Shown here piece after piece: positions 1 through 5,697 of a stretch of DNA of 45,201 bases (positions within the stretch are counted from its first letter, which is position 1; every line of letters begins with the position of its first letter). The DNA comes from Gemmatimonadota bacterium (GTDB lineage Bacteria > Gemmatimonadota > Gemmatimonadetes > Longimicrobiales > Gaopeijiaceae), in the NCBI GenBank assembly GCA_028874995.1, contig JAPPGM010000050.1, forward strand, positions 1 through 45,201, written 5' to 3'. The notes beneath the pieces are model-generated. The model did not search any database, had not been told where the DNA came from, and was given only the letters and a program-made list of their open reading frames with translations. Position numbers and translations under genes: made by a program.

Positions 1-2645
1 TCCATCAGGTAGTGGTCGAAGAACTGCTGCATGCGGATCGCCCAGTCCTTGCGGTCGGCGTAGAAGACCGGCGAGTTGTGGATGTACTCGGCGGTGGACT
101 CCCACAGGGTGCCCCCGATGCGGCTCTGGGTGCGCTCGTACTGGAACATGCGGCTCATGCCCGACGACCAGCGGATGCCGCCGTACGCACTCGTCATGTT
201 GCTGACCGGGGCGCCGGCCTCGGCCGCGGCGAACAGGTTGGTCTTGGTGATCATGTACGCGATCTGGTAGCCGCCCCATGAGTGGCCCTGCACGCCGATC
301 CGGTCGCGGTCCACGAACCCCCGCGCCACGATGCTGAGCACCCCCGGAACCACCGCGTCCAGGGCGCTCTCGCCCGGGTAGCCCACCTCGTAGGGGATGT
401 CCGGCACGAAGACCACGTAGCCGCGGCTGGCGTAGAAGGAGTACGAAATGGATGACCCTCCGGGCGTCGGCGCGCGATAGGAGTGGAGGCCGTCGGAGCT
501 GCGCTCGTAGAAGTACACCATCATCGGGTACTTCCGTGACGGGTCGAAGCCGTCGGGCTTGATGAGGATGCCCTGGAGCGGCGTTCCGTCGTTCGAGGTC
601 CACTCGGCGACCTCGGCCGTGCCCCACCGGTACTCGGACTGCTGGGGATTGGCGGCGGTGAGCTTCACCATGTCGGTGATGTCGCCGTCCGTCACCCAGA
701 GGTCCGGGAACTCGCGGAAGTCCTGGCGGGTCATGAGCCATCGGTCCGCGTCGTCGGCATGGCCGCCGAAGTTGAAGCGGATGGCCTTGTCGGCCATGAT
801 GATCTGCTCGGGGGCGGCCTCGCGGTCGGTCCGTCCGCGGTAGAAGCCGGACTGCTTGCTCCGGTAGTGGAAGGCGCCCCAGAGCGCCTCGCCCTCGGCC
901 AGATGGGGGTCCTCGAAGTCGGTGCGGGTGTAGTGGAAACGCATGTTCCCGGCGCGTCCGGCGCCCGCGGTCACGTTGGTGGTCTCGCCGGTGGCGGGCT
1001 CGAAGCGCCAGACGTCGTGGCGGTCGTAGAAGAGGAACGCCTCGTCGTCCTCGGTCCAGCCGGCCGAGCCGTAGGAAGGCGGCAGGTCGGGGTGGTCGTC
1101 GAGTTCGTTCCAGACCGGATAGGGGACACCGGCGCTCGCCGCGACCGGGTCGCCGCCGGCCAGCGGGGCCACCATCCAGTGCCGCGCCGCGCCATCCCAC
1201 CAGGAGATGTAGCGACCCGAGGGGGACGGCGAGGCGAAGGCCTTGGTACTCTCGGCGATGAGGCGGTGCTCGCCCGTGGCGACATCGATGGCGTAGAAGT
1301 CGTTGTAGCGCCCGTCCCAGGAGATGAGCTGGCGGTAGGGGAGGTTGGAGACGCCCAGCGCCCAGGGCCGGTCCCCCGCCGCGGGGAAGCTCACGTTGGG
1401 GATGCTCTCGGTTCCGAGCTGGACCACCGTGCCCTCGTCGAGATGAGCCACCGCGGTGTAGGTGCGGTTGCGCTCCTGACCCGCCTGCACGAGCTGCATC
1501 GGCTGCAGGTACGGGTCCTTCCAGTTCCAGATGTCCAGCGTCACCTTGTCCTCGTCCAGCGTCTCGTCCTCCTCCTCCGGCTCGGGTCTGGGAGCCGTGC
1601 CGAAGCGGAGTCGTCCGCCCCCGTCCGAGAAGCCGACGCTCCCGTTCTCGCTGACCCACCAGCCGTCCGGGATTCCCGCGGTGGCCGAATTGGCTATTGC
1701 CGCGCCCGCCCAGTCCGGCGCGGCGCCGCGGTACACGGTGAACTCGGGATCGTCGGCCTCGTAGTCGTCAAGATCGGAGAGAAAGGCGACCTGCGACCCG
1801 TCTTCGGCAACGACCAGCCGCTTGTAGTTCCCCTTGCCCTCCATGACCGCGTGCCGTCCCATGTCGTCCAGTGTCACGACGAAGACGCCGTCCCCCTCGC
1901 CGTCCTTTGCGGAGGTCGCGAAGGTCATCACGGCGGCCTCGTCGGCGAAGAAGTAGGCGGTCACCTTTTCGTAGCGCACCTCTTCGCCGGTTGCCAGGTT
2001 GAGCAGGACCAGGGGCGATCCCTCGTCCTTCTTCTTCTCTTCCTCTTCGTCCTCTTCCTCGCCTTCTCCGGGTTCCGGCTCCGGTTCGGGTTCGGGTTCC
2101 GGCTCGGCCTCAGGCTCCTCGGCGCCCTCCTCCCCGGTGCCCTCGCCCTCCTTTTCCTCGTCCTCCTCGGCGGGTGTGTACGCAACCCAGCTCCCCTCGC
2201 CCGCAACCTTGAAGTGCTCCACCGCGCCTATCGTCCGGCCCACCGCCCCTTCCACCGCAATCACCCCGAGCGAGTCCCCCGGCAGGTCGTCGCCCCGCTT
2301 CCCCTCCCGCTTCAGCGAGTCCACCACCGCCTCGACAGGCGGGATGGAGTAGACGACGAAGCGTGAATCCGAGGTGAAGGTGGGACGGGTTCCGCGGAAG
2401 GTGACTTCGTCGGCCCCTGCACGGGCCGCCTTGAGCGCGAGAACGGGGTCGCCCTCCATGGCGGCCAGCACGTAGACGAGCCACGCGCCGTTCGGCGAAA
2501 GTGCCGAGCCCGTGATCCGGTTCCAGCGCAGGGCGTCGTCGTGGTCGAGGGCGCGTTGCTGGGCGAAGACCGGCGTGGCGGTCGCCGCGGCCAGCAAGGT
2601 GAACGAGAGGGCGAAGGCGAAGGGGCGGAAGCGCCGGTGTGTCAT
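1..2645 (-). CDS. Secreted S9 (prolyl oligopeptidase family) peptidase, C-terminus cut by window edge
   Basis: Read on the minus strand from ATG at 2645 (MTHRR, then a hydrophobic signal peptide ending VFA-QQ), open for 881 codons to the window edge. A propeller-like N-terminal part is interrupted at about residues 160-210 by a very acidic Glu/Pro-rich stretch. The C-terminal alpha/beta hydrolase domain has the nucleophile elbow GHSWGGY with Ser789 (codon 281-279). Family members cleave peptides in the periplasm or outside the cell using a Ser-Asp-His triad. Here the text runs YADR directly into KDWAIRMQQFFDHYL (junction near base 50). In relatives about 50-60 residues carrying the catalytic Asp and His lie between these two motifs, so the triad seems incomplete. 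It follows a small redox gene on the same strand by about 100 bp. Confidence 0.88.
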   Translation of the reverse strand, partial: MTHRRFRPFAFALSFTLLAAATATPVFAQQRALDHDDALRWNRITGSALSPNGAWLVYVLAAMEGDPVLALKAARAGADEVTFRGTRPTFTSDSRFVVYSIPPVEAVVDSLKREGKRGDDLPGDSLGVIAVEGAVGRTIGAVEHFKVAGEGSWVAYTPAEEDEEKEGEGTGEEGAEEPEAEPEPEPEPEPEPGEGEEEDEEEEKKKDEGSPLVLLNLATGEEVRYEKVTAYFFADEAAVMTFATSAKDGEGDGVFVVTLDDMGRHAVMEGKGNYKRLVVAEDGSQVAFLSDLDDYEADDPEFTVYRGAAPDWAGAAIANSATAGIPDGWWVSENGSVGFSDGGGRLRFGTAPRPEPEEEDETLDEDKVTLDIWNWKDPYLQPMQLVQAGQERNRTYTAVAHLDEGTVVQLGTESIPNVSFPAAGDRPWALGVSNLPYRQLISWDGRYNDFYAIDVATGEHRLIAESTKAFASPSPSGRYISWWDGAARHWMVAPLAGGDPVAASAGVPYPVWNELDDHPDLPPSYGSAGWTEDDEAFLFYDRHDVWRFEPATGETTNVTAGAGRAGNMRFHYTRTDFEDPHLAEGEALWGAFHYRSKQSGFYRGRTDREAAPEQIIMADKAIRFNFGGHADDADRWLMTRQDFREFPDLWVTDGDITDMVKLTAANPQQSEYRWGTAEVAEWTSNDGTPLQGILIKPDGFDPSRKYPMMVYFYERSSDGLHSYRAPTPGGSSISYSFYASRGYVVFVPDIPYEVGYPGESALDAVVPGVLSIVARGFVDRDRIGVQGHSWGGYQIAYMITKTNLFAAAEAGAPVSNMTSAYGGIRWSSGMSRMFQYERTQSRIGGTLWESTAEYIHNSPVFYADRKDWAIRMQQFFDHYLM

Positions 2646-2747: not shown

Positions 2748-3104
2748 CTACGTCCCGAATACCGACGCGAGCATCTCCTGGTTGAACCCGACCACCAGCA
2801 TGGTGCCGACCTTCATGGTCGGGGCCCTGAGCTTCCCCCAGCGGCTAACCATGAGTTTGACGAGTTCGCTGTCCGGCGGCCGGTCGGCGGCCGAGAGGTC
2901 CACGCGCACGACCTTCCTGCCCTTGGCGACGCGAAGCTCGGTCATGCCTTCGAGCAGGGTGAGCGCTTCGTCCGCGACCACCGGATCTCGGGTCGCGTTG
3001 CGTGTCTGGGCCGCTTCGATTCCGTTCTGCGCAAGAAACTCCTGCGTGCGTTTGCAGCCGGTTCAGCCGGGGCGGTGATACCGCCATTCGAGGTTGTGGC
3101 TCAC
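2748..3104 (-). CDS. Candidate selenoprotein: thioredoxin-fold ArsC/glutaredoxin-like protein with UGA at the first active-site Cys
   Basis: Reading starts at GTG 3104, with AAGGAG 9 nt upstream, and runs 118 residues to a stop at 2750-2748. An in-frame UGA lies at codon 14 (3065-3063), inside YHRPG-U-TGCKR. Both sides are in the same frame and form one protein: redox motif UTGC (Sec14, Cys17), helix EFLAQNGIE, then LRAPTMKVGTMLVVGFN, where the Pro fits the cis-Pro strand of thioredoxin folds. As I recall the family, ArsC/Grx-like proteins of this length have GC-x-x-C at exactly this place, so UGA replaces the nucleophilic Cys. A hairpin fitting a bacterial SECIS starts just after the UGA. 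The gene sits 67 bp after the beta-propeller gene. Conventional gene callers would report only the 77-residue fragment 2981-2748. The alternative is a nonsense mutation or a base error. Confidence 0.7.
3022..3061 (-). promoter_or_regulatory. Possible bacterial SECIS hairpin after the UGA codon
   Basis: On the minus strand, CGCAGG (3046-3041) pairs with CTTGCG (3035-3030), six pairs including one G-U, around the loop AGTTT (3040-3036). An outer CCG (3061-3059) can pair with CGG (3024-3022). The loop begins 22 nt after the UGA, and a G is the second loop base. Bacterial SECIS elements are known to put the apical loop roughly 16-37 nt after UGA with a G early in the loop. The folding was done by eye and no energy was computed. 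Confidence 0.45.
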
Positions 3105-3171
3105 TGGGGACGTCTCCTTGGGTGACATGGGTGGAAATGGTGTGCCGGCGGGGCATGTGGCGCCGGGGCGG

Positions 3172-4416
3172 TCACTTGAAGCTAAGGTCCCGCACCTCCA
3201 CGCGCTCGACCCCCAGTTCGTCCGTCGCGATCCCGACGACCTGGCCGCGGCTGACCTCCTCGACCTGGAAGGACGCGGGAACGTTGACACGCCCGAGATG
3301 AACGCCGTCGGCCGAGAACACGTCCCAGTGGTCCATTGATTCGCCCCGCATCCGATAACGTTGCGCCCAGAGCTCTCCCGTGTCGGCGAAGAGGACGAGG
3401 GTGTAGGCCGGAAGCGATTCCGGCAACTCCAGACTCCGGTATCGTTCCAGCCGCTCCCGAACCCATGCTTCGTCGCGCTCGCGGCCCCCGGGATTCCTGA
3501 CCCAGGTCTCCAGATGCTCATCCGTCCGGACCGCGGGGGCTTCGTCGAGGCGCGCGATCAGGCGGAGGTCGCCGGCATGGTCGAAGACCTTGACCTCGTA
3601 GGTGGCGCCGTTCGTGAACACGACGCCGTGCACGGATCCCGCGGCGGTCGGGCGCGGTGCGAAGGGCGCCGGCCCCGTATGCACCTGCATGCGCGTACCG
3701 CCACTACCGGTCGAGAAGACGGCCACGGGCGGGTTGATTCCCTCTGCAAGAGTATCGAGCAGGATTCCGTCGAGTCCGTGGCGCAGGAAGAAGACAATCT
3801 CGCGATCCTTCGCGAACATGCTCTCCATGACGTCCTCGAGCGATCCGGCCAGCGATTCGGACGAGGGCACGCCGACGGAGGTCGCGCTGCTCAGTACCGC
3901 ACCGGTTCCGCCGAGCCCTATCGGAAGGACCAACAGGTCGTCCGGGCTGGAAAGGGTCGCCGTTTCAACCGTCGTGCCCTCCGCGCCGAACCGGGTGATC
4001 CTGTCCAAACGGCTGTCCAGCACGAGAATGCCTCCATCCGCGAGCGGCCAGGCGCCGCGCAACGTCAGGAATTCCCCGGGGGCCTCCCCTTCTCTCCCAA
4101 GCGACCGCAGATGGCCTCCGTCCGGGTCGAAGACGCGGATCTCGAGGGCCCGCCCGTCAGCCACGATCAGGTTCCCCATCGCGTCACGCGCCACGGACTC
4201 TATACCCCCGAAGAGCAATTCCTCCGGACCGTCGAGAAGGCCGATCGACAGCGCCGGTTCCGGGGCCAGCTCCGCGAAAACCGCGTCGCCGGGCGGGCTG
4301 GCGACGATTCGGGTTCCCGCCGAGTCGGTGATTTCGACGCCGGCGGAGGTGGCGTCAGGCGATTCGCCGCATGCGAAGAGCAGGATCGTGGCTGCCGCAA
4401 CAACCATGCGTCTCAT
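3172..4416 (-). CDS. 6-bladed beta-propeller lipoprotein (second of a tandem pair)
   Basis: 414 residues from ATG 4416 (MRRMVVAAATILLFAC; ATG 4407 is an alternative start) to a stop at 3172. The lipobox-like LLFAC puts a lipid-modified Cys at residue 16. The body carries the repeats of this family: VARDAMGNLIVADGRALEIR, an IRVFDPDGGHLRSLGREGEGPGEF-like blade and a WPLADGGILVLDS blade. Such propeller lipoproteins are common in Gemmatimonadota and Bacteroidota; their ligands are mostly unknown. It is a clear paralog of the gene 22 bp upstream, with the same order of blades and the same C-terminal VEVRDL ending. Intact frame. It probably shares a transcript with its paralog and with the redox gene downstream. 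Confidence 0.82.
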   Translation of the reverse strand: MRRMVVAAATILLFACGESPDATSAGVEITDSAGTRIVASPPGDAVFAELAPEPALSIGLLDGPEELLFGGIESVARDAMGNLIVADGRALEIRVFDPDGGHLRSLGREGEAPGEFLTLRGAWPLADGGILVLDSRLDRITRFGAEGTTVETATLSSPDDLLVLPIGLGGTGAVLSSATSVGVPSSESLAGSLEDVMESMFAKDREIVFFLRHGLDGILLDTLAEGINPPVAVFSTGSGGTRMQVHTGPAPFAPRPTAAGSVHGVVFTNGATYEVKVFDHAGDLRLIARLDEAPAVRTDEHLETWVRNPGGRERDEAWVRERLERYRSLELPESLPAYTLVLFADTGELWAQRYRMRGESMDHWDVFSADGVHLGRVNVPASFQVEEVSRGQVVGIATDELGVERVEVRDLSFK

Positions 4417-4438
4417 GGACCGCTGCCGGGGGAAAGGG

Positions 4439-5697
4439 CTATCGCGCAACAAGGTTGAGATCCCGTACCTCGGCACGCTGTACGTCCAGGTCGCCCGTCG
4501 CGATCCCGACAGCCTGGCCACGGGTGATCTGCCGGATCCGGAACGAGGTGGGAACCTCCACGCGGCCGAGGTGGCGTCCGTCGTCGCCGAAGACATCCCA
4601 GTGCTCCATTTCGCTTCCGGGCACCAGGTACCGCCGCGCCCAGAATTCCCCGTATCGGCAAGGAGGAGTTCCACATACCCGGGCAGCCGCTCCGGAAGGG
4701 GCAAACCCTGGTACATCTCCACCATCGCGCGAATCGAAGCCTCGTCGTTCGCGAAGGGATTGCCCGAGTTCCGGACGAAGGCCTCGAGGTGCGCGTCCGT
4801 GCGCGGGGGCGGGGCTTCGCCGAGACGCACGATCCTTCGCTGCACGCCATCTTCGCCGAAGAGGGCGACTTCGTATTCGCCGCCCCCCGTGACCGCGATT
4901 CCCCGCGCGGATCCCGCCGCGTAGGGCTGGCGGGAAAAGGGAACGACCAGCACCTGCACCATCGCCATCTCTCCCTCTTGCGTCACCGAACTCACCGATC
5001 TTCGACCCCGTCTTCGGGCCAGGGTGTCGATCAGCTCGCCGTCCACGCCATGCCTGAGGAACAGGACCAATTCACCCTCATCCTTGAGAGTCTCGTGTTG
5101 ATCCCGCATCGCGGACTCGTCGTCCGATGGCATTCCCAGGTCCGTCATCTGGCTCACCACGACCTCCAGGCCGGCCATGCCCCTGGCTTCGAGGCTGGCC
5201 GTCTCGCCGACGCCGGAGAAGCGGGCGGTTCCGATCAGCGCGCCCTCCGCATCGAAACGCGTGATCCGCGCCATTCGCCGGTCCACGGCTGCCACACCGC
5301 CATTCTCGGCGGGCCATGCACCGCTGAGGTATCCGAACTCGCCCGGTCCCTCGCCCCTGCGTCCGAAAGTCCGCAGATGGCGCCCCAGGGCATCGAAGAC
5401 GCGGATCTCGCCGGCGCGGCCGTCGGCCACGACCAGGTTGCCCTCCCCGTCGCGCGCCACCGACGCGATCCGGCCGAAGAGGTATTCTTCGGCTCCGTCC
5501 ACCTCTCCGACCGAGAGTGCGGGCTGCCCGGCCAGTCGGGCGTAGACCGCATCGCGGGGCGGGCTGGTCACGATGCGGATGTCGGCCGAGTCGGTGAACT
5601 GGCCGGCTGCGTCGGGCGGCGCGTCCGGCTGGGTGCACCCCACCACGAACAGGAGCGCTGCAAACCACAATGAGCGATGACCGGGTTCGACATTCAT
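4439..5697 (-). CDS. 6-bladed beta-propeller lipoprotein, broken by a 1-nt frameshift
   Basis: Starts at ATG 5697 with GGAGG 5 nt upstream; signal MNVEPGHRSLWFAALLFVVGC with lipobox VVGC. Propeller blades such as VARDGEGNLVVADGRAGEIR match the downstream paralog. In frame as far as LLLADTG at about 4652. After that the paralog-like continuation (EFWARRYLVPGSEMEHWDVF, ending at stop 4441-4439) lies in another frame. One extra base in the C run at 4648-4651 (G run on the coding strand) restores a 419-residue protein with the expected C-terminus. Without it, the frame runs on through the intergenic gap into the next gene, giving a false 841-codon fusion. I favour a homopolymer sequence error; a recent pseudogene is possible. 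Confidence 0.72.

Follow-up and report, generated by a model that had tools for sequence, protein, structure and literature searches.

An additional member of the ArsC-related UxxC selenoproteins predicted in a Gemmatimonadota bacterium

A UGA codon at the catalytic position of a small thioredoxin-fold protein

Does an in-frame UGA within a short gene of a Gemmatimonadota bacterium encode selenocysteine (Sec) and, if so, what kind of protein carries it? The question is raised by a locus in the window, i.e., the entire 45,201-nucleotide stretch of DNA that we analyzed, in which one minus-strand frame runs from a GTG (3104-3102) to a TAG (2750-2748) and whose sole internal stop is a TGA at 3065-3063, in the context YHRPG-U-TGCKRTQEFLAQN (Table 1). 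Counting residue 14, the product has 118 residues and a UxxC motif of the form U14-T-G-C17, while the first start past the UGA, a GTG at Val42, gives a 77-residue piece. The initial annotation had described the same frame, broken only by the UGA within PG-U-TGC, together with an AAGGAG upstream of the GTG and a downstream piece of 77 residues, all of which we recovered from the sequence. Taken alone, the bare in-frame-TGA pattern is weak evidence for a selenoprotein; the window has a GC content of 67% and holds 145 TGA codons with at least 13 open codons before and at least 90 after them, 14 of which are also accompanied by a UxxC or CxxU motif.

Table 1. Features of the candidate selenoprotein locus (window coordinates)
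Feature	Positions	Strand	Remarks
ArsC-family selenoprotein gene (very probable)	2748..3104	-	118 aa, GTG start, TAG stop; NF041106 110.1 bits, cut-off 85
In-frame UGA, codon 14, very probably read as selenocysteine	3063..3065	-	UxxC with Cys17; TGA at the same codon in 46/47 relatives
Bacterial SECIS hairpin	3030..3046	-	7-bp stem (3040-3046 with 3030-3036), GUU apical loop 3037-3039; loop 23 nt past UGA
Ribosome-binding site AAGGAG	3114..3119	-	purine-rich GGAG-like sites in the same place in many relatives

The protein matches the family model NF041106 (ArsC_rel_Se_1, ‘ArsC family (seleno)protein’) above its cut-off and nearly from end to end, with residues 5-111 aligned to positions 1-106 of the 107 in the model, and shares with that family the UxxC motif with a UGA codon at the Sec position. 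An AlphaFold2 model, built from 28 sequences with Cys replacing Sec, has a mean pLDDT of 94.3, and among solved structures it comes closest to Spx, YffB and members of the ArsC family, with middling scores (VIA Z up to 8.7; best Foldseek E 5e-5) that indicate a shared fold only. The modeling thus points, with high confidence, to a thioredoxin fold of the ArsC/Spx type, in which Sec14 and Cys17 lie where helix 1 begins.

Conservation of the UGA codon

Scanning a single genome for each species yielded 47 relatives, and it is this homology that raises the codon-14 TGA above chance, since 46 of the 47 have a TGA at the aligned codon, while the remaining relative, the most distant (L066, 28% identity), has a Cys in its place (TCSKC). 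The initial annotation had regarded a chance nonsense mutation as unlikely, and had proposed inspecting codon 14 in homologs for Cys or UGA and searching their genes for random stops elsewhere; the first inspection agrees with its view, and no such stops were found. The relatives are labeled as Gemmatimonadota, Latescibacterota, Planctomycetota, Actinomycetota, KSB1, Myxococcales and Vicinamibacteria, although titles of metagenome bins can err. Against close relatives, the codons past the SECIS stretch show dN/dS values of 0.07-0.32, and the part behind the UGA is therefore maintained as protein by purifying selection.

Across 298 genomes of the phylum, NF041106 scores above its cut-off 54 times, and each of these hits holds exactly one TGA. 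By a comparison of lists made by hand and disregarding relatedness, selA is present in 69 of the 70 genomes with a TGA-bearing match versus 226 of the 298 overall; the lone exception (G211) is 88% complete and has a partial match. Among 13 genomes with only weak stop-free matches to NF041106, 12 lack selA, a count that likewise ignores relatedness. These stop-free matches, at 21-39 bits, are general ArsC/Spx relatives rather than orthologs.

Several individual records deserve mention in their own right. One relative (L034, 1382-1735) has UTGY rather than UTGC, with TAC for TGC at Cys17, and is either a monothiol-like variant or a sequence error. Three further weak matches to NF041106 of about 21-22 bits, each with one TGA (G085:C59:17422-17724, G181:C68:97645-97947 and G280:C5:9889-10191), may form a branch of the ArsC fold that is distinct and also contains Sec. 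Four records titled Gammaproteobacteria (L038, L041, L043 and L044) share both the gene and its neighbors with Gemmatimonadota/BD2-11 records, and their titles are hence probably wrong.

A SECIS hairpin and the machinery to use it

The hairpin downstream of the UGA has the sequence CGCARGA-GUU-UCUUGCG and occupies codons 6 to 12 past it. The constraint on these codons is seen in their synonymous sites: the Phe codon in the SECIS is TTT in 36/36 cases, as against 5/54 elsewhere in the same genes, and the Leu codon is CTT in 36/36, as against 23/408 elsewhere in them, with both fixed codons running counter to the GC-rich codon use. The GUU loop is found in 45 of 47 sequences, being absent from the planctomycete-labeled L064 and L065, and in distant relatives the stem is altered with compensatory changes; in the pair labeled Vicinamibacteria, the stem is a new one of 8 bp and the loop is GUUC. 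The covariation score of the SECIS is 0.230 versus 0.140 in shuffles, none of 500 of which scored as high. Sliding the pairing by -2 gives a near score of 0.199, but leaves only 68.7% of cells paired as compared to 89.6%.

Folded alone, the SECIS of the window has an unexceptional and non-significant energy (z 0.4 to -1.1), and 11% of its synonymous recodings fold equally well. The case for the SECIS is therefore built on the related sequences. A search of the SECIS stretch against Rfam gave no family match, with two weak hits far under the cut-offs. The published criteria for bacterial SECIS elements ask for a loop of 3-9 nt with a G in its first two places, a stem of 4-16 bp, a loop position 16-37 nt past the UGA and a minimum free energy of at most -7.5 kcal/mol (PMC13188914); the hairpin, with a 3-nt GUU loop, 7 bp, a spacing of 23 nt and -8.2 kcal/mol, falls within all of these limits.

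The source genome (4.52 Mb in 191 contigs, 96.7% complete) encodes the full set of components that mark a selenoprotein-making bacterium, viz., selA (497.8 bits), selB (314.6 bits), selD (386.7 bits) and a tRNA-Sec, as the initial annotation had suggested checking. The tRNA-Sec, with a UCA anticodon and a score of 68.9-69.3 bits, was found by Infernal at the edge of contig C88; ARAGORN did not report it in this genome, probably because the contig edge cuts off its 5' end. The selD gene (L017, G000:C58:31638-32564) is itself a selenoprotein gene, with an in-frame TGA of its own followed by ACKLGQ and a hairpin with a GUC loop downstream of that TGA.

Taking these lines of sequence evidence together, we conclude that the window gene is almost certainly a genuine selenoprotein gene, with the UGA read as Sec at the active site. 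A gene caller without Sec decoding would be expected to truncate it at the UGA or miss it altogether, and the present evidence suffices for its correct annotation.

The family is already catalogued. A 2026 review of selenoproteins in prokaryotes includes NF041106, described there as arsenate reductase-like and of the UxxC type (PMC13188914), ArsC-like selenoproteins appear in a 2006 survey (PMC1794560), and an ‘Arsenate reductase 2’ with UxxC (cd03032) was reported in the GOS survey of 2008 (PMC2398784). The groups of the two older surveys, that of GOS with UxxC, resemble the window protein at the level of a Sec-bearing ArsC-like class. Between NF041106 and the window protein we see no difference of substance; the latter is one more, well-supported member, from Gemmatimonadota, and is neither novel nor an artefact. 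Thus, the initial annotation's placement of Sec at the first CxxC position of an ArsC/Grx-like thioredoxin-fold protein is borne out by the sel genes, the tRNA-Sec, the UGA conservation, the SECIS and the family model, but its suggestion of an undescribed branch is contradicted by NF041106 and the review cited above.

Alternative readings of the protein and of the codon

The foremost alternative is that the selenoprotein is a true arsenate reductase. The fold matches arsenate reductases (Z 6.3-7.6), the Pfam ArsC model gives 19.5 bits, just under its cut-off of 24, and Sec14 aligns with the catalytic Cys12 of E. coli ArsC, with which the window protein also shares proline 95. However, the three arginines on which arsenate reduction by E. 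coli ArsC depends, Arg60, Arg94 and Arg107, are replaced in the alignment by Ala, Ala and Phe, the position of the first being less sure due to a 3-residue gap shortly before it, and the E. coli enzyme has a single Cys where the window protein has UxxC. Moreover, TIGR00014, the model to which E. coli ArsC belongs, does not match the window protein up to E = 1, and among the 28 family members scanned it matches one, probably the Cys-containing L066. No ars genes were recognized adjoining the gene when its neighbors were viewed, though not systematically. On this balance we regard arsenate reduction as unlikely.

A second alternative would have the selenoprotein act as an Spx-like regulator that binds RNA polymerase, with the UxxC serving as a redox switch. 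By both sequence and fold the nearest solved structures are those of Spx, and the window protein shares with Spx/MgsR the ArsC-type thioredoxin fold, the position of the CxxC and a VG[FY]N motif near the C-terminus. Yet, it differs from them in that Sec replaces the first Cys, and it reaches just 33.8 bits with TIGR01617 (Spx/MgsR), whose cut-off is 75.05, making such a regulatory function improbable.

Turning from the protein to the codon, one could suppose that the UGA serves as a regulated stop, or that a general suppressor reads it as Trp or Cys without selenocysteine. The evidence on residue 14, be it Sec or another, is at the level of genes; this reading would have to accommodate the location of codon 14 at the catalytic Cys position of the fold, a SECIS with a G-U loop and compensatory changes, and the co-occurrence of SelA, SelB and SelD with a tRNA-Sec with a UCA anticodon, and we accord it very little probability. 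Practically no credence can be given to the UGA being a chance nonsense mutation or a miscalled TGC/TGT in an ordinary Cys-containing ArsC/Grx-like gene: the source assembly is indeed fragmented, the neighboring propeller gene shows a frame break and 14 TGA codons lie near a Cys motif in the window by loose criteria, but the sel machinery is present, purifying selection extends past the UGA, and a base-call error is untenable because the same TGA recurs in 46 other records drawn from many assemblies. A general reassignment of UGA was rejected along with the pseudogene and the sequencing error, the codon being conserved; furthermore, many relatives end in a TGA stop and so TGA is not generally reassigned in them.

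Proposed mechanism and the possible role of selenium

For the preferred reading, a selenoprotein of NF041106, we envisage that SelB would bind the hairpin that closely follows the UGA and bring to codon 14 the Sec-tRNA(Sec) whose synthesis involves SelA and SelD, such that the full-length protein is produced. This would adopt a thioredoxin fold of the ArsC/Spx type and carry Sec14-Thr-Gly-Cys17 where helix 1 begins. In thioredoxin-fold proteins with UxxC or CxxC motifs, the first residue attacks and the second, a Cys, resolves. By analogy, the Sec14 selenolate is predicted to attack the substrate, Cys17 to resolve the intermediate by forming a selenenylsulfide, and the protein to be recycled by a cellular thiol system. 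Computation shows the family assignment, the conservation of the UGA, the SECIS and the sel machinery; the role is probably that of a thiol/selenol-disulfide oxidoreductase.

A search for a conserved operon partner found none across phyla, the neighbors being common only within close lineages; the context therefore gives no clue to the substrate. In our sample we found no close ortholog with Cys. Since Sec use in the subfamily is almost without exception, we tentatively raise the less favored idea that its reaction truly needs selenium and acts on something other than arsenate or a general disulfide. According to the 2026 review, what such selenoproteins do is still largely uncharacterized (PMC13188914), and the near-exclusive use of Sec makes this family a good candidate for learning what selenium buys a small protein of the ArsC/Spx fold.

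Neighboring genes

On the same strand, a single ORF of 841 aa at positions 3172-5697 combines two 6-bladed beta-propeller genes that lie in tandem. The first copy goes out of frame near its 3' end, with its expected continuation, MEHWDVFGDDGRHLGRVEVP, in another frame at approximately 4440-4640 in plus-strand coordinates; this break is either an assembly error or a broken copy. The next gene downstream (3-2645, minus strand) encodes an S9 peptidase of the prolyl oligopeptidase type that contains a long insert, acidic and of low complexity, EPEPEPEPEPEPGEGEEEDEEEEKKK.
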